Source: Chloranthus sessilifolius (taxonomy: Eukaryota; Streptophyta; Magnoliopsida; Chloranthales; Chloranthaceae). Taken from it: a stretch of 64,000 nucleotides of DNA. Positions 3,251 to 54,000 of this stretch are shown here, piece by piece. A program made the translations under genes and the position numbers. Numbering within the stretch: the stretch's first letter is position 1; every line of letters begins with the position of its first letter. The notes under the pieces were generated by a model. The model was not told where the DNA came from and did no database searches. It saw only the letters and a list, made by a program, of their open reading frames with translations. The stretch spans positions 88,595,251 to 88,659,250 of the forward strand of contig CM037587.1 in NCBI GenBank assembly GCA_021018995.1, in the 5' to 3' direction.

Positions 3251-3679
3251 GCTTGTAACTCTACCCTTCAAGCTTTGACCTGGGGGGAGGTATGGGGACT
3301 TTGTGTGCATGGAGGCTTTGCCAATGACAACTAACAATAAGGTCACTTTTATTCACTAAAAAGTATCACTTTTCACCTCTTAACCTAGCCTTTGATAGAC
3401 CTTGAAGCAGTCTAATAATCATTTGTTAAGTGTGTTTTGTAGTTAGTAATAATCTATGCAACTTAACACAAATCCATCCTTATTGGCCCAAAGAAGAGGA
3501 AGAAGACATGCAAAGATGACAGCTGAACCAAAGCCTAATGAAACACCCTGGTAGTGCTCACCATGGTGACCAAGTGCTGATCATCATTGACCAAATGCCT
3601 AGTAGATGAATGAAGTTGGCTGAGAGTGGAGAAACTGTAAAAGCAGCAAGTGCAATGCAGTAGAGCATAGAAAGATAGA

Positions 3680-4170
3680 TCTCGCAGAGTTGAGAAGCTC
3701 CCTCGCGAAGCCGAGGATGCAGTGGAAGATGCCCTCGCATAGATAGAACGTGCAATTAAGAGGAGAGCTGTGAAGACATCGCGAAGATCTCACGGATTAA
3801 AATCCTCAAAATTTGTGGTCGCGAAGTTCTCACGGAGATCAGGCCTTAAAGCAGCCGCGCGAAGAACATAGCGAGTCCTTGTGTGAATTGGACTAAAATT
3901 AACCTCACGAAGTTCGTGTGTGGCCCTGGAAGAGAGAGACGCCCAGAATTCTCAAAAATTACTATGCGAGCATAGGAGCATAACTGCGTGAGTACCTAGC
4001 GAGAGAGAGAGATCCTGAAGCTCTATTGCGCGAGAAGTATAGGCACTCCAGATCATCTCCGCGACAAAATTATAGCGTAAAGGAACTGCGCGATTAACTA
4101 AAGATTCACTGCGCCAGTGAGCACTTCCCACCAACCAAAAGCTACTTCGCGAAGGCCCTGCAACTGTGTG
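3680..4170 (+). repeat. Word array in Athila-A 5' LTR: TCGCGA/GCGCGAG-type
   Basis: About fifteen copies of a short CG-rich word (CTCGCGAAG, CATCGCGAAG, GTCGCGAAG, GCGCGAAG, TGCGCGAG, TTCGCGAAGG) lie at 20-50 base spacing. The core TCGCGA is self-complementary. The array ends about 200 bases before the LTR TATA box. The same word recurs at 8285-8630 upstream of the extra ORF. Confidence 0.85.
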
Positions 4171-4386
4171 AATAAGTAAATGCATATGTCAGACCCGTAA
4201 AGCATGAGCTCCCCACTTCTTAGGTTTAACTTAAGGACCTTCTGAGAATTTCTCAAGGCTATGGCACACATCTCGAGGCATGGATTTTGAGGCGCACAAC
4301 TCAAGACATTCAAGGAATGTAATAGTGTCATGTTTACTAGAAAAATTAGGGTTAATCCCTTCAGAGCCATGGCCGTATGGGCAGAG

Positions 4387-4394
4387 TATATAAG
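4387..4394 (+). promoter_or_regulatory. TATA box of Athila-A 5' LTR
   Basis: TATATAAG in a GC-neutral context, conserved at 16585-16592 in the 3' LTR. It probably sets the U3/R boundary about 30 bases downstream; the start site itself is not visible. Confidence 0.65.
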
Positions 4395-5996
4395 CTACAC
4401 TTAGAGTCTAGTTTTATCATCAACCCTTCTCTACCAGCTACGAGCTCCAGCAGGCTAGGGTTAGGGTTTGATCACCTTTTTTCCCTTTTTCTTCTCTCTT
4501 AGCCCAGCACTTGCTGGCTAATCCCCCTGTAAATAGCTAGGTTTAGTTTTATTTCAGTTTGTAATAAGTTTTGTATACATTGAGATTGTGGATGAGCAGT
4601 TGTGTACAGGCTGCAGTCTGGAGGCAGTTCATTGTAAGTTTTGTGTTTATCAATAGATTATTGTTTTAATGCCTAATCGAATCTAAAGATCTTATAGTTT
4701 CTTTAGACGTCTATAGGATCCATGTATTTAAGACTAGCCCATTAAGTTTCTAGTAGATCTATTATTTACCATCTGATTTCCCTTGGTTTGATAGCCCCAT
4801 GGAAAGTAATGTTGGATCTGTAGTGAGATCTAGGGAGCTCGAAGGCCTGTGGACCATGGTGGTTGCAGCACTTTTCATGTTCTTTCTCAGGCCTCTATGG
4901 TATGGACAAACCAATGGAATACCCTATAACCATTCAAGTGGACAGAGTATAGCCCTAAAGTTGTGTCCATTCACATGTTTGAGAAGGATTCTTCTCCCCT
5001 ACACATGAGCTTCTAGAGCCTTGTGAGGAGGTTTGTACAGGAATTGGTTCCCCTTTGTTTTACCTAGCCGACATCAAATGTTAGATCTGATCTCTCTGTA
5101 GTAATTACAGCTTATGGTTGAGTCATTTCAAGCCGTTTGTAGCAATGCCCAGCTAAATCTAAAGCCCTATTCAACCTGTTACATGGTCCTTTCTATGGGC
5201 ACTAGTGAGCCGTTGGCCTTAGCAAAGCACTTAAGATCTTATGGGTTGGAATACCTATGGATGTCAACCAGATCTATGTGCAGATCTGGGGAGCTTGTAG
5301 CACTGGCATTACATAGTGCTGCAATAGTATTCATGGCTTGATCTGGTCCAGTGGCTAGGGAAATGATCAGTCCACTCCTCTGGACTAGATGGACAACTTC
5401 TAGTTTAACTAATGGGATTTGACAGACTCTATAGGATAGGCTGTAACCATTTGAGTGGACAGCCTATAGCGTTAAGAGCACCCCAAATGGTATGGGTTAA
5501 ACTAGATACTTCTACCTTGTTGAGGCTTTTAATAGCATCTCGGCAAGAAGCACTGCTGAGACAGACTAAATCTGAGTTACATTACTATTTTGACTCTGAA
5601 CTTAACCTTCTTACTTGTCACTAATTTTTATATTCTACTTTGGTACACACCATCACCATCTTCTTCTTAACCCTTTCTTTAGGATAGGGCTACATTTTAT
5701 TTCTCTATTTTTAGGATTAATTTAGTATAGTCGTAACACCCAACTCCCTTTCTTTAGGATTGTCAGATCTATAGTTAGATCTGGAGGCCTACTATTATAG
5801 CCCATTTTTGGGTTCTTGATCAACTTCTATGTGGGACAAACTCTTACTTATCAAAACATGCTACAATAGGCCCTGTATCTTGCAGGCCTAGGAGTACTCT
5901 AGTTGTGCTGAATCCATTCTTTTATTTCATTTTATTTTTAATTGGTTTCCACCACACAATAAACCAAGGCACAGCTAGCATCAACCAACAAGTTTT

Positions 5997-6014: not shown

Positions 6015-6275
6015 TGTTGATATGTTTAGTAGACCTGAGTTGTACTATATTTTAGATTTCCAAATTCTTTATAGCTGTACCTAAACTAGAATAAAAGTAC
6101 TTGTGATTCTTTATGGAAATTTGCATAAATGGACAGTAGAAGAGGGGAAAAGCTAGAGCTGCATTTGGAGTGAAGTTAGCTCTATTTGCACTTACCTTCC
6201 CCTAAAATCTCAATCCATTTATGTTTACTTTCCTGTATTTGTTTAGTGTAAATCTGTGTAGTTGTAAATTTTTGT

Positions 6276-7843
6276 TTGAACTATTCTTTGTGTGTGCTTG
6301 TGAGCATTTTCTGTACTTACTGTGGGTGTGAGTATATGCATGGTAGAAGGTATTTAAACCCTAAGCTAGAACTTCCAAATCGAGAGGTTGAAAGGATCCT
6401 CAGACCTAGACGCACCCCACAGGGCCCTACTATTGAAACTGAACCAACTATCATGGCTGAGAGGCAAAGAATATTAAAGGAATACAATGCACCTGGGGAG
6501 TACACCTCCCCCTTCTGCATTCAATTCCCCTATGTTGAAGGGAATTATGAGATTAAATCCTCCACCATCAATATGCTGCCTTCGTTTTATGGGCTTAGTA
6601 AAGAAGATCCCTACAAGCATATAGACCAATTTTTAGTACTTTGCACTACCTTCAATATTGCTGGCTTGGGGCCAAAGGCCACCAAATTGAGGCGTTTTCC
6701 TTTCTCACTAAAGGACAAAGCCAGCACATGGCTATCAAAGCTTCCAGCAAACAGCATACACTCATGGAGTGACCTTCAAACCAAGTTACTGGCTAAATTC
6801 TTTCCCATGAACAAAACCAATCAGATGAGGACAAATATTTTGTCATTCACTTAGTCCTCAACTGAGGATTTTTATGAAGCTTGGGAAAGATTTAAGGAGA
6901 TGTTAAAATAATGCCCCCACCACTAAATCCCAATGTGGCTGCTTGTCCAAGTATTTTATCAAGGAATTAATTTCAAGAGCAGGGATATGATAGATGCTTC
7001 CTGTGATGGTAGTTACCTCCACAAGACAGCTAAGGAAGCATGGGAGTTGTTTGACATAATAGGGGGAAATTCCATGCAGTAGGAGTCTCTATCACACAAT
7101 GATAGCCAGACTCCAGCTAAGATAGTAAAAGAGGCCACCCCTAGAGGTGGAATATATGAAGTGAAAGTGCAAGATGATCTGGAGAGAAAGGTGGACAACC
7201 TGAGCTTGAAATTTGACAAACTCATGAATATGATGCAACCTCGGGTAGTTGCACAGGTGGAGGAGGCATGTCTGATATGCCAGTCTCCCACACATTCTAT
7301 TCGTGATTGTCCATCTGCCACCCAGTTCCCAGATTTTGTTATGGAGGAAGCCAATGCTGCTGAAACTTTTGGGCAGCAGCCTATTGGGTATTCTTGGAGG
7401 AACCACCCAAATCTGAGGTGGAGAAAAGATTCTTATCCTCAACCCCAGCAGCAGCAAATGATAGCTCCTTATAGACCCTAGCACCAGTTTAATCAAGGTT
7501 ATCTACCAAGAACAAAAATTTTGTTACCTGCCCCACAGTCTAACTAGCTGGCCCTGCCCCCACAACAATCTCTAACTAGCTGGCCCTACCCCCACAATAG
7601 TCCAGATCCTCTTCATTTGAAGAGCAGATGCTGTCTTCAATGAAAAATTTAGGGAGCTTGGTGCAAACTGTCAATTCTCATGGACAGAGTATCAAGAAGA
7701 TTGAGGACTAGCTGGGATAGATTTGTATTGCTGTGAGTAAGAGGGAAGAAGAAAAATTGCCTAGTCAGCCTCTGACAAATCTGAAAGGTCAGTATATGAT
7801 TGGTGATGCAACCTCTACTCAGGAGGAAGTTAGTGCTCAGTGA
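6276..7843 (+). pseudogene. Athila-A gag
   Basis: Gag of an Athila-like element, which would assemble into the particle and bind RNA. Visible in order: a basic N-terminal stretch, a core with YKHIDQFL and FPFSLKDKASTWL (the retrotransposon gag signature), a zinc knuckle CLICQSPTHSIRDC (C-X2-C-X4-H-X4-C, around 7270-7310), a Gln/Pro-rich stretch, and the typical tail containing REEEKLPSQPLTN near 7745-7780. The normal start is uncertain; the longest open frame begins at 6276 but the conserved part starts nearer 6340. In-frame stops at about 6852 and 6909 and several later ones break it. It ends at TGA 7841-7843, with no protease after it. Confidence 0.85.
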
Positions 7844-8284: not shown

Positions 8285-8630
8285 CGCAGAGTTAGAAGTC
8301 TTTAATTTGCTACATGAGCCATCACTTGGCTTCCTCACACACTAAAAGCCTGAGCAATGGCTATCAAAATGCCTCACGAAGCTGCCTTTCTACTCTGTGA
8401 GCTCAAGCTGTAAGAGAAGCATGGCTCAGTGTCATTCTATGCAAGCACCACGCGAGATAATTTTGTTAGGCAACACATGGCCTCGCACACTAAAGGTAAA
8501 AGATTCAGCTCCGTGAGTTTTCAATGCGAGGCAGTTTGTTCTTCTGCGCGACAGAACGTCTCGCAGTCTTAAATGACAACTGCACGAGAATTTTACTCTG
8601 CGAGCTCCTATTGCCAACTCCGTGAACCGT
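8285..8630 (+). repeat. Internal word array upstream of the Athila-A extra ORF
   Basis: About twelve copies of the word seen in the LTR of the same element (CTCACGAAG, CACGCGAG, CTCGCAC, TGCGCGACAG, TCTCGCAG, GCACGAGAA, CTCCGTGAG). The rest of this block is not an LTR copy. It sits immediately upstream of a TATA-like box (8642) and about 390 bases before the extra ORF start, so it looks like the upstream part of an internal promoter. Confidence 0.75.
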
Positions 8631-8641
8631 GGGATTTACTC

Positions 8642-8648
8642 TATAAAC
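8642..8648 (+). promoter_or_regulatory. Candidate internal TATA box before the extra ORF
   Basis: TATAAAC directly follows the internal word array and is followed by a pyrimidine-rich stretch, an arrangement like that in the LTR. It is placed to drive the extra ORF at 9019. No transcript evidence is available from sequence. Confidence 0.5.
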
Positions 8649-9018
8649 TCAGTGAAGCCCCTCATTTTCTTCATTTCCTCTGTCTGCCATAGTTTCTCAA
8701 CACAAGAATCGACATCCCTTTCCCCTCCTTTCTTCTCTACTTTGTAATCCACACTACCTCAGGCATTTTCCTCCCACCATTTTGTTCTCTAGCTACTCTT
8801 GGTTACTTTGAACAAGGTTTGGGGGATTTGAACTACTGTGCATAATTTTAAGTGGAACCCTAGCTCTCAACTGGTACAATCTCCATTTCTCTCTCTACCC
8901 TGTGCTTGATTTAGTTAAAAGAAGATAAGAAGGGAAGAATTTGAAGCTTTTGTGTTTACTCTGAGTGAGTGGTATTTTCTCAAAGTTGTAAACCCAAATT
9001 TTGCTAATCTGAGCACCT

Positions 9019-11753
9019 ATGGCCACGAGTTTAAAATTTGTAGATACCCTTACTGCGATGCTGAACCCATCCGTCAGTGGCAGCCCTGTGGCCACTAGAA
9101 AGTCGGCTAGGATTGCAGAGGCCTCCACATTGGGGACCTCTGAGGCTCCCTCACCTGCTGTTGAGCCCTCCATTCTAAAAGAAAAGAAGAAATTTACTCT
9201 AAAGAAGAGGGCCAGAGAGCAACAACCTTTTAACAGCCCTAATAAATCAAAGAAGAAATAGAAAAAGGGCAAAACTGTGGCCCTTGAGATCCCTGAGGTT
9301 GAGGAAGAAGAGACTACTAAACACCTCGTGGTCCCTTCTGAATTTGTGAAAGCAATTCAGCTGGAGGCCGAAACCATTTTCGATAAAGCCTATTTTGAGG
9401 AGCTACCTGAGACTTTTGCCTCCATTGAATATCTGGCGAAGGCATCACTACTGGCCCTGTTGAGACCCTCAATGCAACTGGTTTTCCCAAGGTTGATAAG
9501 ATTATTTTATCAGAATATGAAGTTAAAAATTGGTGATGATGGTAACCCAGCACTGCTGGTTTTAATTGATGATTTTGAGATGCTATTCAACAATGCAGAC
9601 ATTGCAAGGATACTAGGGATACTAGCTAGGTATAACCCTGAGTGGGGCTTGGGTCCTCCTTTGACAGCCACCATTACTGAGATAGCCAAAGAGTTAATTG
9701 GAGGGATCACTGCCTCAGGTGACTCAATCAGAAAGAGGGATCTGCACCTCAACCTCAGGCTAATGGATGTTGTGTTGTAGAAAAATATATATGGCTCTAG
9801 GTATGAGCAGGAGAGGAGGAACCCTATAGTTGATGCCCTGTTATCATTTCACAGAAACCACTACTTGGATGCTGTCAAGTTAGTTTTTGAAGGGATTAGA
9901 GATTTATGTGAGAAGGTAAAGATAATGAAGAAACCTCATGCCCTTCCCTACTGCAGATTGATTACTGCATTACTGAAGTGGGGGGAGTACCCATTTAAAA
10001 GGGAGGAGGAGACTATGGCACTGAACCCCAAACAGAGTGGAAAGAAGCAATGGGGAATCAGTGGCACCATGATGGAAAAGAAGAAGAAGAGGAGGGAGGA
10101 GTTACTAAGAGATGCAACCCCCACCATTCAAGAAGTAGTTGCTACTGCTGATATTACTATAACCTTTCCCTCACTTGTGCCAGCCAGCACCACACTCACC
10201 CCCTCATCCATTACCTTTACCTCCATGCCAGCTCCACCTTCCACCCAGACATCACAGCCCATCACAAGTCCACTACCCCTACCTGACCCTATACCACCAA
10301 CCACCATAGCCACAGCCACCCTACCTAGGTCTATCCCCCTACCTATTTTTCTAACCCACCCTAGTCCACCTGTCAAGATCTCATACCAAAAGAAAAGGAA
10401 AACTTCCAAATCCCCTACTGCACCCCAACCCACCTATATAACCCAAATAATTCCAATCCCTGAAACCACAACCATTTCAGACCTCATACCCACACCTTAT
10501 GAACCTGAAGCCCATACCTTCGAAGTCCCACATTATTCCATTGAGACTTCCCCACCTTTTATACCCATTACTAGTGAGCCTGTAGACCAATCCATTCCCT
10601 TCTCCCATGATCATGAGCCATTTACAGGAGAGGAATTTTCCACTATGATTTCTACTATCCTAGGAGACATCAACCTTGAGTATACACCTCTCCCAGACTC
10701 ACCTCACCCTCCACACTTTACCCCTCCACATCGGACACCACCACAGGCCACTACCTTCACTCATAGACCCGCATCTCCCTTCCAACTAGTTTCACCTATC
10801 CAACCCACACCCAATACCATACCTGACCTCTTACCGCAAATCCTACACCTCCTACTCTCCCTACAGTCCCAAATGCTGACTAACACCCAAAACCAGGCCT
10901 CCATTGAGGCATACATGCAATCCCTAACCTCCACTCTCCAAAACCAGGCCTTTCTAGAAACCTGCCTTCAAGCCATTCAATCCACTTTGGCTACCTTACC
11001 CCAATCCTTACCCTTAGTAGCCGCAATTCCCCCTCCTACTTACACTGAAGCCTCCACATTAACTGACCCAAATATTCCCCCTGTTGTAGCCACCTCCGAT
11101 GCTGCAACAGATTTGGATGACCTAATACCCACATCTTCTAAGTCAATCCAAACAGAACCTGATCAGGAACCCCAACCTCAGCTTCAATCTGCAATTCCCC
11201 AACCCACTCCTTTTTCATTCCTGGCTGGCCCTTCTTCAAGTGAATATCAGCCCTTGATTCCTGCCTTTTCTTTTTCCATCCCCCCTATTCCACCCTCCTT
11301 CAGGCAATGAAATCCAATCCTTACATTAAAAAGGATGTCATTCGAGGGATGACTGCTATCAGAACATCAATCAGGATACCATATGAAGAAAAGATCCATC
11401 TCCTAAAATTAGATTTCGAGATGCAGCTCAGGGACATCGCAAAAGGGTCAAAACAAATGTTGCATTTATATAAAGCCCAAGAAAGGATAGCTGCCCAAAA
11501 GAAGCTGAATGTAGAATAGGAGAAAATGGCTGCTACAACAGAAAAACTGAGAGCTGATAGATTAGAGAAGAGGTTGACTGCTTCAAAGGAGAACAGGGAG
11601 CTCCTTATCTCCCGAGCTGAATTGGCAGAACAAAAAGTTGCAATTCTGGAAAGACAATTAGCTCAAGCGACTGAGAGAATACCTCCACCTGCTGTTGGGG
11701 AGTCTGAAAAAGGGAAAGGAGTCAAAATTAAAGATGAACCAGCAGATATTTAG
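9019..11753 (+). pseudogene. Athila-A extra ORF (aORF): 'putative plant transposon protein'-like, Pro-rich linker, coiled coil
   Basis: A non-gag, non-pol frame. One frame runs 9019-11310, broken only by TAG at 9259 and 9778. A second frame (11307-11753, one TAG at 11517) begins at an ATGA overlap and probably continues the same protein after a frameshift. Order: basic N-terminus with RKSARIAEA and Lys-rich tracts (nuclear-localisation-like), a conserved domain with FPRLIRLFYQNM and YEQERRNPIVDALL, a roughly 380-residue Pro/Thr/Ser linker, and a heptad-rich C-terminus (about 11400-11700). Motifs in the conserved domain recur in the Tekay-E extra ORF (YPRLVRLYYQNM; HEQERRGPLLQAL). I place it from memory with the plant-transposon protein family; its function is unknown. 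A chromatin or DNA-binding role is inference. Confidence 0.78.
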
Positions 11754-15512: not shown

Positions 15513-18192
15513 TGTTATTCACAAAAAAGTACCACTTTTCACCTCTTAACCTAGCCTTTGATAGACCTTGAAGCAGTCTAATAATCATTTGTTAAGTGTG
15601 TTTTATAGTTAGCAATAATCTGTGCAGCTTAACACAAAATCCATCCATATTGGCCCAAAGAAGAGGAAGAAGATATGTAAAGATGATAGCTGAACGAAAG
15701 CCTAATGGAACACCTTGTTAGTGCTCACCATAGTGACCAAGTGCTGATCATCATTGACCAAATGCCTAACAGATGAATGAAGTTGGCTGAGAGTGGAGAA
15801 ACTGCAAAAGCAGTAAGTGCAATGTAGCAGAGCATAAAAAGATAGATCTCGCAGAGTTGAGAAGCTCCCTCACGAAGCTGAGGATGCAATGAAAGATGCC
15901 CTCGCACAAATAGGACGCGTAGTTAAGAGGAGAGCTATGACGACATCGAAAAGATCTCATAGATTAAAATCCTCAGAATTTGTGGTCGCGAAGCTCTCGC
16001 GGAGATCAAGCCTTAAAGTAGCCGCGCGAAGAACATAGCAAGTCCTTGTGTGAACTGGACTAAAATTCACCTCGTGGAGTTCGTGCGTGGCCGTGGAAAA
16101 GAGAGACGCCCAGAATTCTCCTCGCGCATATCTCATGCACTCTGAAGCCTTACCAATTACTACGCGAGTGCAGCACCATAACTGCGTGAGTACCTAGTGA
16201 GAGAGAGAGCTCCTGAAGCTCTACTATGCGAGAAGAATAGGCACTCCAGATCATCTCTGTAACAAAATTATAGCGCAAAGGAACTGTGAGATTAACTGAA
16301 AATTCACTACGCGAGTGAGCACTTCCCACCAACCAAAAGCTACTCCGTGAAGGCCCTGCAACTACGCAAATAAGTAAATGCATATGCCAGCCCTGCGAAG
16401 CACGGACTCCCCACTTCTCAGGTTTAACTCAAGGACCTTTTAGGAATTTCTCAAGGCTAGGACACACATTTCGAGGCATAGATTTTGAGGCGCATGACTC
16501 AAGACATTCAAGGGACGTAACAGTGCCACGTTTGCTGGAAAAATTAGGGTTAATCCCTTCAGAGCCAAGGCCATATGGGCAGAGTATATAAGCTACACTT
16601 AGAGTCTAGTTTTATCATCAACCCTTCTTTTCATCCTCTGTCGGCTGCGAGCTCCAGCAGGCTAGGGTTAGGGTTTGATCACCTCTTTTTCATTTTTTCT
16701 TCTCTCTTAGCCCAGCACTTGCTGGCTAATCCCCCTGTAAGCAGCAAGGTTTAGTTTTATTTCTATTTGTAATAGGTTTTATATACATTGGGATTGTGGA
16801 TGAGCAGTTGTGTACAGGCTGCAGCCTAGAGGCAGTTCATTATATGTTTTGTGTTTATCAATGGATTGTTGTTTTAATGCCTAATCGAATCTAAAGATCT
16901 TATGATTTCTTTAGACATCTATGAGATCCATATATTTGGGACTAGCCCATTCAGTTTTTAGTAGAACTTTTATTTACCATCAGATTTCCCTTAGTTTAAT
17001 AGCCCCATGAAAAGCAATGTTGGATCTATAGTGAAATCTAGGGAGCTCGGAGGCCTGTGGACCATAGTGGTTGCAGCAGTTTTCATGTTCTTTCTCAGGC
17101 CTCTGTTGTATGGATAGACCAATGGGATACCCTGTGACCATTCGAGTGGACAGAGTATAGCCCTAAGGCTATATCCATTCACATGTCTGAGAATGATTCT
17201 TCTCCCCTGCACATGAGCTTCTAGAGCCTTGTGAGGAGGTATGTACAAGAACAGGCTCCCCTCTATTTTACCTAGCCAACATCAGATGTTAGATCTGATC
17301 TCTCTGTAGTAATTACAACTTATGGCTGAGTCATTACAGACCATTTGTAGTAATACCCAGTTGAATCTAAAACCCTATTCAACCCGTTGCATGGTCCTTT
17401 TTATAGGCACTAGTGAGCCGTTGGCCTTAGCAAAGTACTTACGATCTTATGGGTTGGAATACCTATAGATGTCAGCCAGATCTATGCGTAGATCTGGGGA
17501 GCTTGTAGCACTGGCATTACATAGTACTGTAATAGCATTCATGGCTTGATCTAGTCCAGTGGCTGGGAAAATGATCAGTCCACTCCTCTGGACTAGATGG
17601 GCAACTTCTGGTTTAACTAATGGGATTTGACACTCTATAGGATAGGCTGTGACCATTTGTGTAGACAGCCTCTAGCCTTAAGAGCACCCCAAATGGCATG
17701 GGTTAAACTAGATATTTCTACCTTGTTGAGGCTTTTAATAGCGTCTCAGCAAGGAGCACTACAGAGAGAGACTAAATCTGAGTTACATTACTGTTTTAAC
17801 TCTGAACTTAACCTGCGTACTTCTCACCAATTTTTATATTCTACTTTGGTACACACCATCACCATCTAATTCTTAACCCTTTCTTTAGGATAAGGCTACA
17901 TTTTATTTCTCTATTTTTAGGATTAATTTAGTGTAGTCGTGACACCCAACTCCCATTCTTTAGGACTGTCAGATCTGTAGCCAGATCTGGAGGCCTACTA
18001 TTATAGCCCATTTTTGGGTTCTTGATCAACTTCTCTGTGGGACAAACTCTTATCAAAACTTTCTACAATAGGCCCTGTATCTTGCAGGTCTAGGAGTACT
18101 CTAGTTGTGCTGAATCCATTCTTTTATTTCATTTTGTTTTTAATTGGTTTCCACCACAGAATAAACCAAGTCACAGCTGGCATCAACCAACA
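15513..18192 (+). repeat. Athila-A 3' LTR
   Basis: A 2680-bp repeat, TGTTATTCAC to CAACCAACA, matching the 5' LTR throughout with scattered substitutions. It contains the same word array (15846-16370) and TATA box (16585-16592). Confidence 0.9.
15846..16370 (+). repeat. Word array in Athila-A 3' LTR
   Basis: Same TCGCGA/GCGCGAG word cluster as 3680-4170, copy for copy. Several copies differ between the LTRs by C-to-T or G-to-A at CG sites (for example CTCGCGAAGC against CTCACGAAGC), as expected from decay of methylated CG. Confidence 0.8.
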
Positions 18193-20663: not shown

Positions 20664-20667
20664 TCTA

Positions 20668-20789: not shown

Positions 20790-20954
20790 TGTTAGACCTC
20801 AATTAACCACTAATATATGCTTTTAGTTCGTGTTGTGTTGCAACAGGTGCGGAAGTTGGTTAAACGTAAAAGCGTTAAATGAGCAAAGTTAGGAAGAAAC
20901 CCAAGCAAAAGGCAAGAATCCAAGGAGATGTAGCCAAAGGAGGGCTTTACAAGG

Positions 20955-21300
20955 TCAAATGGACTGGTCAAAATTGCAAATTCGACCAGTCGGTATAGCA
21001 CAACAGAGGAGATTTTCAACTGATAGAGAAGTAACCCTATTTGGACCAGTCGAAGCATCACTTTTGACCAGTCAAGACACTGATGGCTTCAAAAACATGA
21101 AGAGAGACCAATCAGGACTCAGCTGACAGGTCGAAAATAACATAAATAAAAAGAAGAATCCTCAAGAGTTATTTCGACTGGTCATAGTTATTTTGACCGG
21201 TCTGGAAATTAAAGCTAAGCTAAAGCTCACGAGTCATCTCCTACCTGAGAAGGGAACTGAAATCGAATGGTCGGTTCTTCAATCCCAACCGGTCCAAATA
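20955..21300 (+). repeat. Word array in Athila-G LTR: TTTCGACCGGTC-type
   Basis: About ten copies of GACCGGTC or a half-variant (TGGACTGGTC, TTCGACCAGTCG, TTTGACCAGTC, TTTCGACTGGTC, TTTGACCGGTC, CAACCGGTCC). GACCGGTC is a perfect palindrome. The array lies about 190 bases before the TATA box and recurs at 26555-26830. Confidence 0.85.
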
Positions 21301-21492
21301 GTGTTTCTAAGCGAAAAATAAGGTCTACAGCTATGGATATCTACGGATGCCAAGATCTTCTCCGGGAATCTCTTCAACAAAGTTGGATAACTCTAAAATC
21401 ATGCGGATTTCCTTTTAGAATCACACCCTTGGAGGATTTTTAGGATCTAGAGAATCCTTGTCGTGTATATATCCTTCTAGGGCCTTATAATC

Positions 21493-21500
21493 TATAAATA
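21493..21500 (+). promoter_or_regulatory. TATA box of Athila-G LTR
   Basis: TATAAATA followed by AGGACCCTAGGG, downstream of the word array. Confidence 0.65.
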
Positions 21501-22302
21501 AGGACCCTAGGGTTTAGTTTTAGAGGACTCACATGCCGAAACTTTTCTAGAGGGCTCTAACGTTAGTTTCCATAGTATTAGGTTAGATGTAGTTCTGGAA
21601 TGGAGGGAGACTGGATGTAATCATCGATCAAAGCCTACATCAGCAATGATGAAGGCCTCTGATTCGATGCATGCTTAAAGCTTCGAGTCGGAGCTCTTGT
21701 AAATTCTGGATAAGTATCTTAATAAATTTTTATTTTCTTTTTCTCTTTGTGGATTCCATTGTGGTACGATTGCACATTCGAGGTTCCGACTAGATCGAGA
21801 ATGCGATGGTAGCAATGCAATCTTATGTAGTTTAATCTCAGTGGCCTTATAGGGATTGGGGTTAGATTAGATATGATATTTACCGACGGACTAGGCCTTG
21901 TAGGGTAGTTTTTGTTGGTTCGTGCAATGGTTCTTTGGTTAGTAGGTTTGTCTAACTCATGATTAGATCTACCTATTTCATATACAAAGTGACTGACCTT
22001 GTAGCCAGGAGCGGGGGTACTAGGGATTCATGATAGAAAGGAAGTAGGATTTATTAGTTATGAATCTGGAATCCAAGAGAGCCCTCAATCTGCTTTCTCC
22101 TCTCCTATTTCCAAAACTATGTAGATTTCTTTTATTTTTGTTTTATATTAATTTAGGAAATCTAGTGCTACAAATTATTGTGTAAATATAGAATTAAATA
22201 GGAGATAAACGACAAATCCCTGTGGTTCGACACCTTTATACTTGCCCTAGTACATTCGAACTTGTGCACTTGCAAGGTCATATTTTAAGACGATCAAGTC
22301 TT

Positions 22303-26416: not shown

Positions 26417-26554
26417 TGAGCGCTTTGACCTTGTCGAGGTACTGACGCATCCGTAGCTCCTCTTGGGAGGCAACCCAAGCAATTTTAAACTTATTAATTC
26501 TAAGTTTTTAAGGTGTGTTAGTGAAATCTGGCTGAGAATAGAAGTCTCAAGCAG

Positions 26555-26830
26555 ATTTTAACTGGTTGAAATAGATTTCAACTGGTCAAGTTATTCATAA
26601 AGGAAGAAGCACAGCAGAAGCCAAAGCTTTTACTGTGTTCTGGCTGGTCGAAATAGAATTCGACTGATCTAAATGGGAATTTACACTTCACATCAGAAGC
26701 AGACTTGGAACAAACCTTTTGCTCTAATTTTTTGACCGGTCGAAAAGGTTTCGACCAGTCGAGTTTATATGTATAAGGGCTATTTAATGCTCTCCTGATC
26801 GATTGAAATCTATTTTCGACCGATCTTGCC
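26555..26830 (+). repeat. Internal word array of Athila-G
   Basis: Four back-to-back inverted pairs of the LTR word: AACTGGTTGAAA/TTTCAACTGG (26555), GGTCGAAA/TTCGACTGATC (26641), GACCGGTCGAAA/TTTCGACCAGTC (26729) and GATCGATTGAAA/TTTTCGACCGATC (26795). Each pair is separated by 3-8 bases. It precedes a TATA-like box (26959) and the ATG at 27037, repeating the Athila-A arrangement. Confidence 0.85.
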
Positions 26831-26958
26831 CTAGTCCTCTCCCATAGTCTTCTTCCTTAAGCCCTATGCCATTTAAACTTGTGTCGCGCGCCTGTTCCAC
26901 TTCTCAACCATCCATCCTCACATTTAAACCGACCCTTTGCCTTCTCCACCACCTTCCA

Positions 26959-28307: not shown

Positions 28308-29877
28308 TATAGACACCCAAATTTGGCCCAAGGCCCGATCAACTTACACTTCGAGAAAGGCGCACCCTCCGAGCTTCTGAGAGTACTTTTCGAACCCTTA
28401 GAAGTTGACCCAAACCCTTAGAAATCTATCCCTAATCTTTAAGAATCAACCTAACTTGTAGACCCCTCCCAAGCCAGCTTTAAACCCTCCCAGGCTGTGG
28501 TTGAAGGGAGGAATGCCATAGTTTGTACATACCCTTTCTGGAATAGTGGCATGTACCATTGAAAAGGGGATGTTCTCAGCTTTCCAACAAGAAAAGAATC
28601 GCCTCAATCCGAGCTATAGATCAAAAGTTAGGGTGGTTTTAATATCGGGCAGAAATGCAGGATTTTTGCCTAGCGTATGTAATACGTACACTAGGCCATT
28701 TTATGGCTGTTTTTGGCCTAGCGTATGTATTACATATCCTAGGCTAATTTTTGTTGTTTTTTACCTAGCGTATGTAGTATATACGCTAGGCAAAAATTTG
28801 ACCTTTCTGTGGACCGTATGGCGGGAACTGAACCTCTAGGTTTCTCTGGAACACTGTTCCTATAACTAGCGTATATAATACATACGCTAAGCTTAGGAAC
28901 AGTGATTTTTAGGATTTTTGCTAGATTTCAAAATTGGGGTTTGACTTGTTGACCACCCCATCCATTGGGGTTGGTTTTGATGGGGACTGTTGCAACCCCA
29001 TTTGCCCTATTTGCAATCCTTTAGCCTTTAAAGCCCCCCCTATCATCTACCATTGAAACCCATTTCCCACCTCTCTAAGCTTCTAAAACCCTTGAAAACC
29101 TTAGATTCCTATTACTTAATTGCTAACCCAATTAGCCCTTTAACCCATCCTTAACCTCCCTTTTTGCTATACATAGAGAGGCAACCATCCTTTCACAAGG
29201 GCTTGAAAAATTTTCAAAGAGAGAGAAAGCTCTAGAGACTTCTTCCTCCCTTGTTTAGCATTAAACCTCCTAAATTCCAAAACTTTAGTTCATCCTTTAC
29301 CCACCATTTTCCATCATAAATCCCTTAGCCTTAGCAATATCAAAGCCTTAGCCCATCTCTCCTTCCCTCTAGCTCCCTAAGCCTTAGAGAGCTTGAGATC
29401 CATCCTTCAACCTTTTGCTATCGGAAGGTCATCGAAAGCGCGTCCACGTGAAGGACCACAGTTGTCCTACAAGGGCCCGAGAGCTCCAGCTCTCCCCTCT
29501 ATTCCACTACTTTCTTTGGTTTTTCTCTATCCTTGAATTTGCGTTGTTACGCCACCGAAATTTTGGTGATTGTGAGAGGCTTAAATAGGATCGGAGTGCC
29601 TTCGGGCAAGAGGAAGTGTTGTTTTATTTTTATTTTTATTTTTTCTTTTGGCCATAAGTAGAGACTGCTCATGAGTAGGTTGATCGGGTGCCTAACACCT
29701 TTCTAACCGATAAACGAATCCCCTACCCAAGAGGCTTTGGTGTAGACCAGATCAGAGTCATATTTTTAGCACTTCGGTGCTTTGGGTATCCCAAGAAACC
29801 AAAAGCTCCGGTGGCGACTCTAAATTTGTAGAAAAGAGCATATCGTCACGACGGTCTCGCGAGAGCCCACGGTTGCA
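28308..29877 (+). repeat. Tat-C 5' LTR
   Basis: TATAGACACCC (canonical TGTAGACACCC with a mutated second base) to CACGGTTGCA, about 1570 bp. The 3' end matches the Tat-1 stub (20668-20789) and the remnant at 48898-49295; the 5' end matches LTR-D. Candidate TATA: TATACATAG near 29169. The U5 part contains CGTCACGACGG and the CCAAAAGCTCCGGTGGCGACTC block. Confidence 0.82.
28668..28895 (+). repeat. Word array in Tat-C LTR: CCTAGCGTATG-N-CATACGCTAGG
   Basis: Four near-perfect palindromes of about 28 bases with half-site CCTAGCGTATG and centre TAATA, TATTA or TAGTA. The same word is repeated in the leader (30688-30856) and near the antisense extra ORF (43256-43420). Confidence 0.9.
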
Positions 29878-29881
29878 CAGA

Positions 29882-29899: not shown

Positions 29900-31258
29900 G
29901 TAGCTAGTAGAGCTTCCCCTTGAAATTTAGCCCCTTTCGTTGCTTTTTATTTCCATTTTCACTAACATTTATTTGTTTTCCTTCATACTCACCCCTACGA
30001 TTCCATCTATTTTTACTTACCCCTTCCGTCATTTACATGCCTTAGTCGATTGGCGGGCCTACTTGTTCATTGTCCTTACTTTCATTTATTTTTGGTCATT
30101 TACATGCCTTAGCCGATTGGTGGGCTTACTTGCGCCTTTACATGCCTTAGCCGTTTGGCAGGCCTACTTGAGCTTTTAAAATTTTTGCAATCATATTCTA
30201 CCAGTGGATGCCGGCCCGTAGATGCGGCACGGGATCATCACAACCTATTTTTGAACCTAAGCAAACTCCCTTTTAAAATTTGAAAATTAAAATTGAATCT
30301 TAAAAGTGAATCCAGAGACTTAATTCAGTTTGCGTTGGGTAGATTTTCAAGGGGGGAACTTAGGCAGCGATATAAACATCCCGGTGCTTAGTATGGCGGC
30401 AGCCCCTAGTGGTGATGATACGGAAAAGTGCCACCCCATCTAGTATCTCAGAAGGCGCTTGCGCCAGAGGTATAAAGGGTGGGTGACCGATCCAAGTACA
30501 AAGCTTAAAACCCTTGGGGAGAGCGCTAGTCATCCCGAATCAACCTTATATCCCTAGGTTCGGAGATGAGGGACCCACTGCAACAAAGAAAATCAATCCC
30601 CGGGAGCATTGCTTCCAAAAACCCAAAAAAATAGACCAATTTCGAGCCTATTGCTGCTATCAAAATAAATATATAAACACTATTTTAGCCTAGCGTATGT
30701 ATTACATACACTAAGCCAAAAATCTCTAGAAACTGCCAAGCGTACCTAATAGATATGCTAAGCCAAAAATTCCAGAAAATTCCTAGCGTATGTATTACAT
30801 ATGCTAAGCAAAATTTCCAAAATTTTTGCCTAGCATATGTAATACATATGCTAGACCTTTCTAGCTTCAGGCAGCTCAAATATGAGGCCTCTTTTCACTG
30901 ATCCCGAGTTCCCCGCTTAGCATTTTAGTACCTCCTATAGATCCCACACATTCTGACACCCAATACGCCCTCGCCAGTCAAAAGAGGCCACCCTCTTATT
31001 GACTTTTTCTGAGGGATTGGGTTGTCGCGTGGATTCCCGTGCCTTCACATAGATCAAAGGATTCCCCTTTGATTCTTTCGAAGCGTGCCCGGGTCCCGCC
31101 GTGGGAAATATTTGGGGCATGAACACCGCCCGAAATGGGAATTCCAAGGCCTTGGAATCCATCATAAAAAGGTTCATTTTTTTTTTGAAAAATAAAAAAA
31201 ATCATCAAGAAAAAATCAAAAATCCAAAACAATATATATAGCTTGTGGTGTCGGCACA
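29900..31258 (+). other. Tat-C 5' leader
   Basis: A 1.36-kb untranslated leader. It contains three tandem CATGCCTTAG(T/C)CG-TTGG-GGGC units (30037-30170), the GGATGCCGGCCCGTAGATGCGGC block, the GAGAGCGCTAG block and a palindromic word array at 30688-30856. It lacks any long open frame. Long structured leaders are typical of Tat elements; this one could serve packaging or dimerisation, which is inference. Confidence 0.7.
30688..30856 (+). repeat. Leader word array of Tat-C
   Basis: Four palindromes with the LTR word (CCTAGCGTATG, CATACACTAAGC, CCTAGCATATGTAATAC), 40-45 bases apart. Because it lies downstream of the primer site, it is in the genomic RNA at the 5' end, unlike the LTR copies placed in U3. 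Confidence 0.88.
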
Positions 31259-41559: not shown

Positions 41560-43100
41560 TCTAGGTCAATGACGTAACTCGCGCTTCACAGCACGAATCT
41601 CAGCATGTAAGGCATCCTCCCGAGCATCCTGATCTGCCATCCAACAGCCATGCAGGCTCTTATACCACTTTCGAGAAGCATTAGTAGCACCAAGAGCATC
41701 ACTCAGGGCTCCTTCTAGACGAAGGACCTCACACTCTGCAAAACTAGCTCTTGCTTCTACAACATCGGCTCTGAAAGTGTGTTTCACTAAACATTCGTGC
41801 AGGACCAGCTTCTCATCTATCAACAGCTCAATCCGAGCCAGAAGCATTGACTCCTTTCGTGGCCAAGGCCTCTCCGAACCACTGCACTCCACGTAATCCA
41901 CGCAATGGACAAAGGGCCTCTTCGATAGCAGCCAGGCCTCATACCCCGAAGAAGTCCGAAAAGAATCCCCTTACTCCAAACCACACATGCATCGACTAAC
42001 GTGTCTCCCAAAGAGCGGTTATCCTATCCAAGTCTCTCGAGGACCCCCAAGAAAAGATCAGTCCACACAAGGGAGGTCTCTCCGAGCAGGGCACCTGCTA
42101 GGTATAACCAAACTGGCGCATTACCCGAGAGGGAAAATAATAAGTACTGCCGGTCAATCTAAGAAGGGTGATTCCCTCGTGATCTCCGACTCGAACCACT
42201 GGGAAGGTCCTATCCAACCATGAAAGCCTCCACATCAGCTCAGCCTCGGCCAACCAAAGTTTCAGCTTGCATATATTCCCTCATGGTAACTTATGGCATT
42301 GGCCCAAAAAGCAGCGAGCCACCTCTCCACGAACCATATAAAAGCGAGGCATGGGCCTCAAAATGGTGAGATGCTCCCCAAGCCAAACTTGGAGCAGAGC
42401 AAGGCATCCTTGGAGGCACTCAACCTTTCCTAAGGCAAAAGCATCGAGACAATGGTAAAGCTCTGTCAAAGCCAGATGCATCATGGAACAGCCTCCTTCA
42501 AGCTCTGTCAACATGTCGCAAAGTGCTAGGGATAAACTCTCTCCCCCAGTATAGAAAAGGACCTCTCAGAGAAGGGAGGGAATGAAAGCTTTCACGTTAT
42601 GGATATTTCTAACTTACAATTTTTGCAAGCTTTCATCGCCAAAAATTTCTCTTAGCAATTTTATCGAACAACTGGTGGGCCCACTGACAAGGCTTTTCTC
42701 ATAATCGACTTTTTTCAAGCCCAAAGTCGTATGGACGGCTTTAGCATAACCTAGTTTCGGCAATACCCTAGCGAGGCCTCTGTGTAATTTCAAGCCCGAT
42801 AGGTTGAAGAGCTCCTCAAGAGTGGGAGATAACTCACGGTTCCCAAAATAGAAGACATGGGTATCCACTTCCCAAAGTGAAGCCACCACATGAAGGAGAT
42901 CCCAAAGCAAGGGAATGCCAAGAAAGGACGGGAGACGGGCCAGCTCGAGTTGATCCAAGCTTGTCTTCATTTAAACTTTTGAGTCATTTCTTTAAAAAAT
43001 TGGGCCCCCCGCCCAAAGAGGGAAGTATAAAGGTCTCAGACCTTTGTGGGACCTCCCCAAGGAAGGAGGGGTCGAAAAGCGTGTCCATGGTCATTCAAAC
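41560..43100 (-). pseudogene. Tat-C antisense extra ORF, plant-mobile-domain-like N-terminus and coiled-coil C-terminus
   Basis: A minus-strand reading frame inside a plus-strand element, downstream of integrase. Pieces: 42970-42614 (MKTSLDQLELARLPSF, then VDTHVFYFGNRELSPTLEEL, resembling the plant mobile domain opening in which a residue pair before 'TPTLxDV' is conserved), then the same frame after a stop to about 42120 (ending FPSRVMRQFGY, a conserved tail motif of such proteins), and, after a frameshift, 41901-41566, rich in Glu/Ala/Arg heptads. Antisense extra ORFs of this sort are known in Tat-type elements (for example maize Grande). The function is not established. It has its own upstream word array at 43256-43420 and TATA-like CTTATATTT near 43164-43170 (minus). 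Confidence 0.7.
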
Positions 43101-43255: not shown

Positions 43256-43420
43256 CCTAGCATATGTATTACATACGCTAGGCCAAATTTTCCCAGAATG
43301 GCCTAGCGTATGTACTACATACGCTAGGCCAAAAATCCCCAATATTTTCCTAGCATATGTATTACATACACTAGGCCAGAAAATGCCCAGAAATGCCTAG
43401 CGTATTTAATACATACGCTA
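43256..43420. repeat. Word array upstream of the Tat-C antisense extra ORF
   Basis: Four palindromes with the same word as the Tat-C LTR and leader (CCTAGCATATG/CATACGCTAGG, CCTAGCGTATG/CATACGCTAGGC, CCTAGCATATG/CATACACTAGGC, CCTAGCGTATTTAATACATACGCTAG), about 45 bases apart. Relative to the minus-strand ORF it lies about 290 bases upstream of the candidate ATG (42970). Confidence 0.9.
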
Positions 43421-43430
43421 GACCAAAAAA

Positions 43431-48897: not shown

Positions 48898-49295
48898 TGC
48901 AACTGTGGGCTCTTGCGAGTCCATCACGATGATGTGCTCTCTTAAAAAAGTTGGAGTTGCAACCCGAAGCTTTTGGTGTCCTTGGATACCCAAAATCAAT
49001 ATTATAAGCACCGAAGTGCAAAATATGACTCTGATTCACCGATCAACACCAAAGCCTCTTGAGTAAGGACTTCGGTTATCAATTGGGAAAGTGTTAGGCA
49101 CCCGATTGAGCCACTCACAAGCGGTCTCTACTATGGCTAAGTCTATGCTTAGATGTGTATAATATATATATATATAAGGAGAAAAATTAGCGACACTTCC
49201 CCTTGCCCAAAGGAACTCGGATCCTATTTGAACCCCCCGCAATCACTAGAATTTTGGCGGAGTAACGGCTCAAATTCCAAGACCCTACTGCTGCT
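48898..49295 (-). repeat. Remnant of a minus-strand Tat LTR (3' half), probably of Tat-F
   Basis: Minus strand reads the last roughly 400 bases of a Tat LTR, ending CACAGTTGCA (+ strand TGCAACTGTGGG at 48898), and matches the Tat-C LTR end and overlaps LTR-D. Its 5' half is missing and it is joined directly to the truncated Tekay-E LTR at 49296. Tat-F lies on the other side of Tekay-E in the same orientation, so this could be the 3' LTR of Tat-F. Confidence 0.7.
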
Positions 49296-51965
49296 CCGGA
49301 TCTAGTACAGGTTCAGCTCCTGCAATCATGACATATAGTCAAGGAATGAGCTTCATCTAAGCTCAGTAGGGGCATAACAATGCAAAATGATATAAAATTA
49401 TTCTACTCATGACATAGATGCATATACAAATCATTTTATCAGTTTCACAAAATATCCAAAGCATGCGAGCATAAACAAGTACTTGAAAACATTCATTCAT
49501 AAACATTTCATGTCAGGATGCAAGGAGTGTATGAATTCAAATCCAAAAATCAAGCAAGGAGCTAGAATTGGCTTTCATATCAAGCTTGGGATGGTGAGTT
49601 TGTATAAAACAAGCATATAGGATAATATAATCGAGCATGGCACAAAACAAGCACATAGGATCATAAAATCGAGCATAGCATATCTCATCGAGTAATCGAG
49701 TCACATAATATTAGTGTGAGTAATCCCTTAGCGGGAATAAAGCAATCCATAGCGAACACTAGGTTAGAACCCCGGGGACTCCACCCCTCCCTTGGAGATT
49801 CCACTCCACTCACAACTAATCACGAGAACGAGAATAGATTTGTGGCAATTGCATCCCATAGTGGGAACTGAGTAGTCTGTAGCAGACACAAGGTTAATAC
49901 CCCGAAGACTCCACCCCTCTCATGGAGGGCCCACTCTTCAGTTGAACACAATCTCACACATAGCATATACACGCGAACATTAACTAATGAGAGTTGGTTC
50001 TTATACATAACATGTTCACTTGAATACGAATGGACACGAATCATAACACAAAATAGACCTAGATTTCTCAATGGATCAGTGCAAGCAAGATGTCAAGTAA
50101 GTCATGTAATTTCATGTGCGGAGACAATTATAAATCATATGCATGGCTTTCATTTATCAGGTATGTGACGAAGATAGAAATCAGATACGAGCAATTCATT
50201 TATGTTATCCCATGGTTCAAGTCAAGCATATAACTTTGCATTCAAAATTTTCCTTCCTCAAGTCAAGTCGAGCACACATGTTGATTCTACAAGTTCAATT
50301 CGAGATGTTTTCCACTGCTTTTCTCCTAATTCACAAGGCCACACATATGTCTTAGTTATCAGTACTTAATACAATCACGCGCTCATGGTTCACAAGCACA
50401 CAAGTCAAATCAACCCTAAAACAAGGTTTCCTGCTCGAGCATGGCACATTCTTGCTCGAGCAATTCCCAGTGGCACCAACAATCACGCTCGGGCAGTTTG
50501 ACCCGAGCCGAATTGGCCTCGAAGTCCCACTCGAGTGTCTCCATTCTTGCTCGAGCGGTTTCCATATCACAAACCTTAAATCACACTCGAGCAGTTTTGT
50601 TCTAAGCGATTTTAGCTTACAAATCCCGCTCGAGCGGAGGCTTCGGGTATTTTCCCGCTTGAGCGACTCCAATCATGCTCGAGCGGTTTTTCAGTACAAA
50701 CCCTCATATCACTCTCGAGCAATTTCAACCAGAGCCAAATTGGCCTAGAATTCTCGCTCGAGCGTAGGCTTCAGGTGATTTTATGCTCGAGCGACTCTAA
50801 ACCACGCTCGAGCGAACATCACAGAACAGTCCTCCTTTACAGTTTGGTACCTCTGCTCGAGCTGGCCTTTATGGCTTCTCAAGTTGTCTCAACAACACCT
50901 AAATCACACCCTATACGAGTCATCACTCATTTACGAGATTCCCCTTCGAACACAACCAATTACACACAACTTCATACGCATTTACTAGTTTTAAAAACAC
51001 ACCATTCATTTCCCCAAATTTCAAAACACATGCAAGGGCTCCAACGGTCAAATCCCAGATGCATCCTTTCTCGCGATTGGCACACGTTCAATCCGTGAAA
51101 TCTTTGCATGCGGCTTCAATTATCAATACTCAACAATAAGACTCAGATTCTAAAACACAACACATGTGTCATGAGGGTTACCTTTATTAGTTTCCCTTGC
51201 ATGCGAAGTTCTACAGCACGTCGGCGTCGAATTAACAGTCAAAGCATCGATTCTATGACCCGTGCAGTGCTCTTCGCCTTAATCGAGTGGACCACCGAGT
51301 GTGGGGCTCTCAAAGGTTGAATCGAGCAACTCCTATTTGAATGAAAGGGTTTTTGAGAGAGCTCAAAGGGTTGGGTTTACAAGGAAGCAAACAAGGAGAA
51401 GGGCAACGGCTTCTCTTCCTCTCTCTAGTTTCTCCTCGAGCTGCAGCAACCGGCTCTCCTCAATGCAATGATTTACATGTTTACGTGAGGAGGTGGCTAA
51501 ATAGAAGGTGGTTTGGGTTGGGTGTATAGCTCATGTACACAAGGGTTATGTATACCTCCATCACTTGGCTCTAATTTCATGGGCCATAGTGTCCCTATTT
51601 CACATGGGGCTTGGCTCACGTAACTTCTAACGGGTCTTAATGGCATGTGGGTTCAACTGGGTCTTAAGTGACCAATCTACTCTAGCATTTGCCTTCCAAG
51701 TGGTCCGAAGGAACCTTAATTCCTAATTAGACCCAAGATAGGTTGGCTTCCACAGGGTCTGTGGGCTTAGGTTCAAATAAATCTCAATCCAATTGGTCCC
51801 CATATGGGTCTCAAGTGTACTAGTTTCCTATGGGTCTCCAATGACCAACTTTCAAATGGATCAAGTGGGCAAGTGTCTAAGTGGATTTCTTCTGTTCGAG
51901 ATCTAGTGGTCTGTGACACACCATTTGTTCTGAATTACACGATCGTGACTTTATAGGGTGTCACA
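49296..51965 (-). repeat. Tekay-E 3' LTR, truncated
   Basis: Matches 59835-62246. It starts (minus) TGTGACACCC at 51965 next to the polypurine tract and stops at 49296, about 450 bases short of the LTR end, where it joins the Tat LTR remnant. It holds about 270 bases (50030-50320) that the 5' LTR lacks. Confidence 0.88.
50433..50870 (-). repeat. Word array in Tekay-E 3' LTR: CGCTCGAGCG-type
   Basis: About 13 copies of CGCTCGAGCG or a one-to-two-base variant (CTCGAGCA, CTCGGGCA, CTTGAGCG) 25-45 bases apart. The core CTCGAG is a palindrome. Copies at matching places in the 5' LTR (60705-61146) differ mainly at CG sites. Confidence 0.9.
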
Positions 51966-51980
51966 TCCTCCCCTCCTTAC
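51966..51980 (-). other. Polypurine tract of Tekay-E
   Basis: Minus strand GTAAGGAGGGGAGGA immediately before the LTR start TGTGACACC, as expected for plus-strand priming. Confidence 0.85.
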
Positions 51981-53685: not shown

Positions 53686-53926
53686 GGTGTAAAGAAAATA
53701 GAACAATTTCAAAAAAATCTCAAAGAAATAGGGGGTTTCTAGGGTTTTACCGGTAAAAAGAAAGGTGTGAAGAAGATCTAGGTCCCAAATCCGGATGAAT
53801 CTCATAGAAGAGAGATGAAATGGTGTTGCCTCGAGAAGATTAGAGCTTCTTCTTGCAAAGGAAGGAAGAAAACGAGCGTGAGAGGGTTTTTGTAACATCA
53901 CGGGAATGAATAAAGGGTTTCCGCCC

Positions 53927-53934
53927 TATTTATA
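53927..53934 (-). promoter_or_regulatory. Candidate internal TATA box before the Tekay-E extra ORF
   Basis: Minus-strand TATAAATA (followed by GGGCGGAAACCC) 242 bases upstream of ATG 53685 and just after the internal word copies. Very close to consensus. Confidence 0.6.
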
Positions 53935-53942
53935 GACCCGAT

Positions 53943-54000
53943 GGCCGCTCAAGCGTGACTTAAGTGGACGCTCAAGCAGTAGTTTTGCGCTCGAGTGGGC
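53943..54000 (-). repeat. Internal word array of Tekay-E
   Basis: Plus strand CCGCTCAAGCGTG, GTGGACGCTCAAGC and TGCGCTCGAGTGG within 58 bases: three copies of the LTR word (CGCTCGAGCG) directly upstream of the internal TATA box. This is the Tekay counterpart of 8285-8630 and 26555-26830. Confidence 0.8.

Follow-up and report, generated by a model that had tools for sequence, protein, structure and literature searches.

A family-specific word common to the LTR and the extra-ORF promoter segment in nested LTR retrotransposons of Chloranthus sessilifolius

Introduction

The closest described precedent for the arrangement reported here comes from the copia Sireviruses, for which Bousios et al. 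(2010; PMC2829016) described element-specific palindromes and CpG islands, with clusters in the long terminal repeat (LTR) ahead of the TATA box and also 5' of the ENV-like gene. They argued for an internal promoter; the palindromes have a CGG-CCG core except in Tnd-1, and that account identifies no common binder. The core pattern is therefore already published for this group of elements, a precedent that the original prediction does not mention.

Two systems provide functional parallels. VANDAL DNA transposons of Arabidopsis encode VANC proteins with DUF1985/DUF287 domains, whose binding and demethylating activity have been established by experiment, and which recognise the motif YAGTATTAY, a non-palindromic word arrayed in one orientation (PMC5735166, PMC10398659). 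In bovine foamy virus, the element-encoded transactivator Tas binds both the LTR and the internal promoter (PMC4929722). Among plant retrotransposons, gene23 of maize Grande is an antisense additional open reading frame (aORF) with its own promoter, and a nuclear or DNA-binding character has been proposed in this group of systems, to which other antisense aORFs and Retand TRP28 also belong (PMC7264820, PMC11963269). A study of sunflower reported an Athila aORF with the PF20167 domain and a nuclear signal, and a Tekay aORF that was different and 5'. The function of such extra ORFs is described as an open question by Neumann (2019), one that dates back to the description of envelope-like ORFs in 1998.

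We analysed a stretch of 64,000 nucleotides (C4:88595251-88659250), hereafter the window, from the 2.17-Gb genome of Chloranthus sessilifolius. Our analyses support a family-specific word that occurs in the LTR and again in the promoter segment of the aORF, both in the window and in sampled relatives. We describe the distribution, spacing and turnover of these words and the proteins encoded behind them, and weigh the explanations that may account for the arrangement.

Results

Elements of the window

The window consists of nested LTR retrotransposons throughout, and four of them, Athila-A, Athila-G, Tat-C and Tekay-E, are described in Table 1; their Athila, Tekay and Tat labels were assigned by eye. 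Nine frames of three Athila-A segments, lying between gag and aORF or beyond the aORF, gave no Pfam match at E 0.01 and so no pol domain; the copy, reduced to gag and aORF, looks non-autonomous. An aORF search with Athila-A returned 73,259 first-look candidates (unconfirmed), so that the aORF and its promoter may have been retained in a family that possibly lacks pol (6252-11750). Well ahead of the Athila-A 3' LTR, at 12027-12070, the polypurine-tract sequence AGGTTTGGGGGTGTGG is followed directly by its inverted copy. A solo LTR-like insert within Athila-A (12512-14360) has its own word, TTTTCGAAAA, at gaps of 20, 31-32 and 41 bp (up to 2 mismatches). Two Tat-like pieces were seen by eye and through partial alignments: a minus-strand LTR (46762-48028) with GCATGCGTGCATA..TATGCACGCATGC palindromes, and a leader (19640-20740) with a similar word at 19745-19810.

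Table 1. Features of the four elements, in window positions.
Feature	Position	Strand	Remarks
Athila-A 5' LTR	3349..5990	+	89% identical to 15515-18192
Athila-A 5' LTR words TCGCGA, CTCGC, TGCGCGAG	about 3682-4152	+	TATA at about 4387
Athila-A gag	6252..7840	+	PF03732 1.3e-19
Athila-A pre-aORF word cluster	8285..8640	+	12 LTR-trained motif matches, 0/1000 shuffles; then TATA 8642-8647
Athila-A aORF	9019..11307	+	two in-frame TAG; PF20167-like, E 4.8e-5, under curated cut-off
Athila-A 3' LTR	15515..18192	+	words as in 5' LTR
Athila-G 5' LTR	20790..22300	+	ends approximate; no second LTR aligned in window
Athila-G LTR GACCGGTC words	20962-21294	+	five pairs, 19-22 bp apart
Athila-G pre-aORF words	26540..26958	+	14 motif matches, 0/1000 shuffles; then TATA about 26960, ORF remnant 27037
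Tat-C 5' LTR	28311..29880	+	ends approximate; no second LTR aligned in window
Tat-C LTR CCTAGCGTATG..CATACGCTAGG array	28660-28895	+	
Tat-C leader array copy	30682..30862	+	
Tat-C array upstream of minus-strand aORF	43256..43429	.	8 motif matches, 0/1000 shuffles; homologous to LTR and leader arrays
Tat-C antisense aORF pieces	42101..42970	-	PF10536 1e-6 (42284-42565), PF24924 4.1e-4 (42101-42280); both under cut-offs
Tekay-E 5' LTR (aligned part)	59844..62247	-	88-89% identical to 49292-51966; CGCTCGAGCG words 60707-61145
Tekay-E pre-aORF words (53946, 53969, 53988)	53926..54030	-	7 motif matches, 0/1000 shuffles
Tekay-E pre-aORF TATA	about 53934-53927	-	just downstream of words
Tekay-E aORF	52681..53687	-	frameshift and stops; homologous to Athila-A aORF
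Tekay-E 3' LTR	49292..51966	-	words as in 5' LTR

Words of the LTR recur ahead of the extra ORF

Motifs were trained on the LTR alone, the internal region being unseen, and were then counted in every pre-aORF segment; a k-mer word was used for Tat-C, where expectation maximisation (EM) on U3 gave a low-complexity motif. For the counts of words reported below, mismatch limits were chosen manually for each word. In each of the four elements the number of matches in its own pre-aORF segment was reached by none of 1000 dinucleotide shuffles, there being 12 matches in Athila-A (shuffle mean 2.67), 14 in Athila-G (0.92), 8 in Tat-C (0.10) and 7 in Tekay-E (0.33). For the 12 combinations of a motif with a foreign segment, the count was reached by at least 61 of 1000 shuffles. 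Same-size windows elsewhere, with LTRs and known arrays excluded, never equalled the own count (0/369, 0/308, 0/644 and 0/1320).

A plain k-mer test also returned the pre-aORF segment as the best non-LTR window for Athila-G, Tat-C and Tekay-E; for Athila-A it did not, other LTR words (AGATCT) drowning out the signal. When an 8-bp EM motif derived from the Athila-A U3 was used, the pre-aORF segment was the best window outside its own LTRs (13 matches, the next having 9), while with 10- or 12-bp motifs it was outranked by the nested Athila-like LTR at 12.7-12.8 kb.

Insertion of ordinary LTR fragments, which the original prediction had named as a possible refutation, is ruled out as the source of the internal words in Athila-A, Athila-G and Tekay-E, since LTR and pre-aORF segments gave no BLAST alignment at E 1e-5. 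The LTR, leader and pre-aORF arrays of Tat-C align with one another as copies of one 47-48-bp tandem repeat; the palindromes predicted in its LTR, in its leader and upstream of its aORF are all there, though as one homologous array and not as independent words. All four arrangements lie at the coordinates that had been given for them, and the claim that the word differs between families and matches between LTR and internal copies within each was borne out by the LTR-trained test in 4/4 elements. The internal cluster of Athila-A is real, but its words are degenerate, exact TCGCGA being absent and three sites lying within one mismatch of it. Athila-G has the predicted words and TATA box, and its supposed extra ORF at 27037 is a remnant that stops after 18 codons. 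The layouts of Tekay-E and Athila-A stand, with aORFs that are not intact: both contain stops and that of Tekay-E is also frameshifted.

Relatives in the genome

For Athila-A, a genome search gave 71 matches from 59 scored candidates, from which 18 upstream segments were sampled. The LTR-trained motif was enriched in 17 of these (15 at 0/200 shuffles and two at 1/200), and foreign motifs were not comparably so, that of Athila-G never falling below 78/200 shuffles and that of Tekay-E reaching 10/200 at its lowest (L084). The sole exception was L069 (42/200), which we do not accept as a counter-example, its upstream segment appearing by eye to be interrupted by unrelated sequence. In another relative, L042, CGCGAG occurs 26 times, with 15 copies pre-aORF, 10 in the LTR region and one elsewhere (0.1 expected).

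For Tekay-E, 19 relatives were cut out from 152 matches, and in 16 of them two or more words of the CGCTCGAGCG type are retained. In the other three the promoter segment is missing or, by eye, interrupted; it is missing in L061 and L066. A candidate for a different word, L060, was set aside: its homology begins only near the aORF, and the sequence upstream looks by eye like an inserted LTR of another family.

A genome search with PF20167 produced 13,856 candidates, of which 150 were scored, all above the cut-off, and the best 30 loci were cut out. These define a copia family, P, in which at least two GGACGTCC-type words precede the aORF in 29 of those best 30 loci; in the remaining one (L009), rejected as a counter-example, reverse-transcriptase sequence lies directly before the aORF and the promoter segment is missing. 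The copia backbone was identified in one copy (gag PF14223 5.7e-19, RVT_2 4.7e-68), and the family splits into two groups with about 76% DNA similarity. That same copy, followed in full through pieces L045, L017 and L046, has LTRs that are 98% identical and carries the word (up to 1 mismatch) four times per LTR and nine times before the aORF, with two strays in 17 kb. Among diverged copia groups (7 pairs), word columns are 66-89% identical against 45-61% for their flanks, a comparison that is partly circular, the words defining the columns. The family P word, ACGGACGTCCGT, has the CGG-CCG core, and the family is a member of the published Sirevirus repeated-motif kind. These sampled relatives of Athila-A, Tekay-E and the Sirevirus-like family P, some of which have open aORFs, agree with the prediction of a word shared within each family.

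In another family, Q, represented by L044/L047, words of the TCGATTAATCGA type, with up to 2 mismatches allowed, number 12 before a PF20167 aORF (6.8e-15), six in a second internal cluster and three in the LTR, where the palindrome centre differs. Pfam gave no decisive lineage; the family looks Athila-like, because the stretch ahead of its LTR matches that ahead of the Athila-A 3' LTR (77% over 198 nt). In L044 (minus orientation) the second cluster, at 2667-2803, comes after the aORF and is followed by a 156-aa open frame, and may be a second internal promoter. Separately, L043 contains 14 TGATCGATCA words at 7600-7990 (element orientation), perhaps the LTR array of another family.

Spacing, distance to TATA and turnover of the words

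Adjacent words often lie about two helical turns apart. A band of 19-23 bp, chosen post hoc from Athila-G and then tested in Tekay-E, P and Q, contains 102 of the 104 adjacent gaps of up to 35 bp in family P and 35/37 in the Tekay-E relatives, together with all gaps in the Athila-G LTR (5/5), the Athila-G pre-aORF segment (2/2), the Q pre-aORF segment (7/7) and the nested family in L043 (11/11). The two Tekay-E LTRs of the window (3/7 and 4/7) and the solo LTR at 12.8 kb (4/11) are less clean, and the Athila-A relative L042 has no gaps in the band (0/2 and 0/5). Pooled phasing at 10.5 bp (R 0.67; 60 gaps of 8-45 bp, Athila-A excluded) was reached in 0/5000 random sets under a null of independent gaps, an assumption that tandem duplication would break. 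Athila-A words showed no clear helical phasing (R 0.29-0.34). In an autocorrelation scan the band was raised in Athila-G, Tekay-E and the solo LTR (H), while A, C, D and F showed no such rise. The whole genome contains 2,491 pairs of exact GGACGTCC words spaced by 18-23 bp, against 1 for a backward-pattern control that lacks CpG and is unmatched.

Of 17 Tekay loci, counting the copy in the window, 13 have the TATA box 12 nt past the last word; among 29 copia P loci this distance is 13-15 nt in 11, a minority. As background, a TATA occurs at some point within 90 nt of randomly chosen positions at a frequency of 0.10-0.13.

The word seems to change within one Tekay-like aORF lineage, to judge from the pre-aORF segments. 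Six upstream pieces of diverged Tekay-like aORFs (44-48% identity) were compared: L093 retains CGCTCGAGCG, L088 and L091 have TCGCTryAGCGA-type words, L090 and L092 carry small numbers of degenerate words that are built differently, and in L089 no word was found upstream of the aORF. Immediately ahead of Athila-A, at 2920-3260, clustered palindromes of the CTCGCCNGGGCGAG type resemble the words before the L092 aORF.

The extra-ORF proteins

In a single BLASTP comparison, two pieces of the Tekay-E aORF matched that of Athila-A (3e-13 and 7e-11). The domain that unites these proteins is PF20167 ('Transposase_32, putative plant transposon protein'), which aORFs of Athila, Tekay and copia match; of the aligned aORF pieces 9/9 do so. 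It is weak in the Athila-A (4.8e-5) and Tekay-E (1.4e-3) copies of the window, whose decayed aORFs score 19-24 bits against a curated cut-off of 45 bits; relatives pass that cut-off (L013 66.8, L017 65.9, L041 60.9, L043 56.4, L044 55.8 and L042 54.5). The Tat-C pieces are of a different protein type, with weak matches to the plant mobile domain and DUF7745. Between the Tat-C aORF and the next LTR, plant mobile domain frames occur on the minus strand at 45102-45858 (PF10536 3.3e-9 at 45628-45858, above the cut-off).

Pfam scans detected no DNA-binding domain in the aORFs and no DUF1985/DUF287, and a search for solved-structure relatives found none (best PDB match E 0.3). No strong basic run is present in the N-terminus of the two family P aORFs examined, and no homologues of the Athila-A aORF were found in the protein collection or viral contigs searched. 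In family P, 23 of 30 loci have a frame of 300 aa or longer; of their 253 pairs 248 were counted, and dN was lower than dS in every one of them. The sample is biased, since these loci are the best-scoring ones. This shows that the family P aORF is under purifying selection.

Discussion

The same private word placed before two promoters, often helix-phased and near a TATA box, is what would be expected of a self-encoded regulator of its own gene and LTR. We give roughly even chances to the proposal that each family has a two-promoter circuit in which the word is read, most likely, by the aORF product itself. The LTR promoter would drive the gag-pol RNA and a second, internal promoter the aORF, both bearing the same private word, which in most cases is a palindrome, 6-14 bp long, that contains CpG. 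The aORF product, a PF20167 protein in copia, Athila and Tekay, would bind as an oligomer across words on one helix face, and binding would activate, or lift the silencing of, the gene for this product together with the LTRs of the family, the result being a self-reinforcing, family-private switch. By analogy with foamy-virus Tas or VANC, the aORF protein is most likely a family-specific transactivator or anti-silencer.

Several observations weigh against a self-reader. Sireviruses without ENV (OPIE-2, PREM-2, Osr8 and Tnd-1) retain LTR palindromes (PMC2829016), so words can persist without an aORF of their own, and Tat-C shows the same layout with another, plant mobile domain-like, type of aORF. 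Furthermore, Athila-A shows no clear phasing, the TATA distance is fixed in only a minority of copia loci and the protein searches returned no DNA-binding domain. Both the ENV-less Sireviruses and Tat-C would be readily understood if the words were read by host transcription factors, each family having captured a different host site and multiplied it in both promoters while the aORF does something else. The words do sit upstream of TATA boxes, as ordinary enhancers would, and comparison with plant sites in the Sirevirus study mainly recovered those of stress-related factors (PMC2829016). We nevertheless consider host readers unlikely, if worth serious attention. A single host reader is hard to reconcile with homologous aORFs that are associated with different words; with words differing among families that have one aORF domain, many factors would be needed, yet two-turn spacing recurs in several families. 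Moreover, multiplication of the word in the one full element is almost confined to the LTR and the stretch ahead of the aORF.

It is improbable that the palindromes function as RNA or single-stranded hairpins, in packaging, dimerisation or as a source of small RNAs, instead of as protein sites on DNA. The Tat-C leader also contains 27-nt palindromes, and LTR palindromes of maize Sireviruses are hotspots of small-RNA mapping (PMC5311732); against this, Athila-A, Athila-G, Tekay-E and copia P have short words, located in U3 and ahead of the aORF, and the helical spacing in Tekay-E and P, often with a fixed TATA distance, fits DNA binding. Neutral tandem-repeat debris, spread by slippage or by gene conversion between LTR and internal region without any reader, would suit the plainly homologous tandem copies of Tat-C and the family-specific tandem arrays of Retand elements, whose function is given as unknown (PMC11963269), but is a poor prospect when LTR and internal words of Athila-A, Athila-G and Tekay-E do not align, CpG-rich words of diverged copia groups resemble each other more than the flanking sequence does (the partly circular comparison above) and the words are placed before TATA.

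If the aORF does read the private word, a large share of the genome would be under element-encoded, sequence-specific control; searches of this genome gave 13,856, 36,656 and 73,259 first-look candidates, which are unconfirmed and overlapping. A broader reading of the self-regulating circuit, which we advance tentatively and rate at somewhat below even, is that PF20167 'envelope-like' genes are not envelopes and instead constitute a portable DNA-binding, self-activating module found in copia Sireviruses, Athila and Tekay. Each family would have a fast-evolving private word in its LTR and before its own gene, and so an insulated switch with which to escape silencing without waking its neighbours. 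The word, its spacing and the TATA distance are exact probes, and together with open aORFs they permit a direct test of binding.

Among known systems, Tat-C resembles elements with antisense aORFs of the Grande gene23 type, and the accounts of Grande and Retand in PMC7264820 and PMC11963269 describe no word common to LTR and aORF promoter. Foamy virus Tas has the same layout of LTR and internal promoter, in animal retroviruses; its binding has been shown, whereas that of the aORF proteins is inferred. VANC offers a likeness in that a transposon-encoded protein acts with a short motif that is specific to the family, is multiplied in the non-coding parts of the element itself and has been diversified by repeat formation. 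It differs in belonging to DNA transposons, in having DUF1985/DUF287 and not PF20167, and in that its binding is experimental; the VANC parallel drawn in the original prediction is accordingly sound as a functional one and fails as homology, the aORFs matching PF20167 and not DUF1985.

The nearest relation is with the Sirevirus repeated motifs, with which our elements have in common a palindromic word clustered in the LTR and 5' of the extra gene (degenerate in the Athila-A window copy). The Ty1/copia backbone of that group is present in the family P copy for which it was identified and not in Athila-A, which has a PF03732 gag, and the CGG-CCG core is absent from TCGCGA, GACCGGTC (CCGG), CGCTCGAGCG and TAGCGTATG. 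As far as we have searched the open-access literature, most subscription papers lying outside it, the new elements are the presence of the arrangement in Athila, Tekay and Tat as well, the unrelated words of these families, the whole-turn spacing, and PF20167 as a link between the aORFs of copia and those of gypsy elements, being common to Athila, Tekay and copia.
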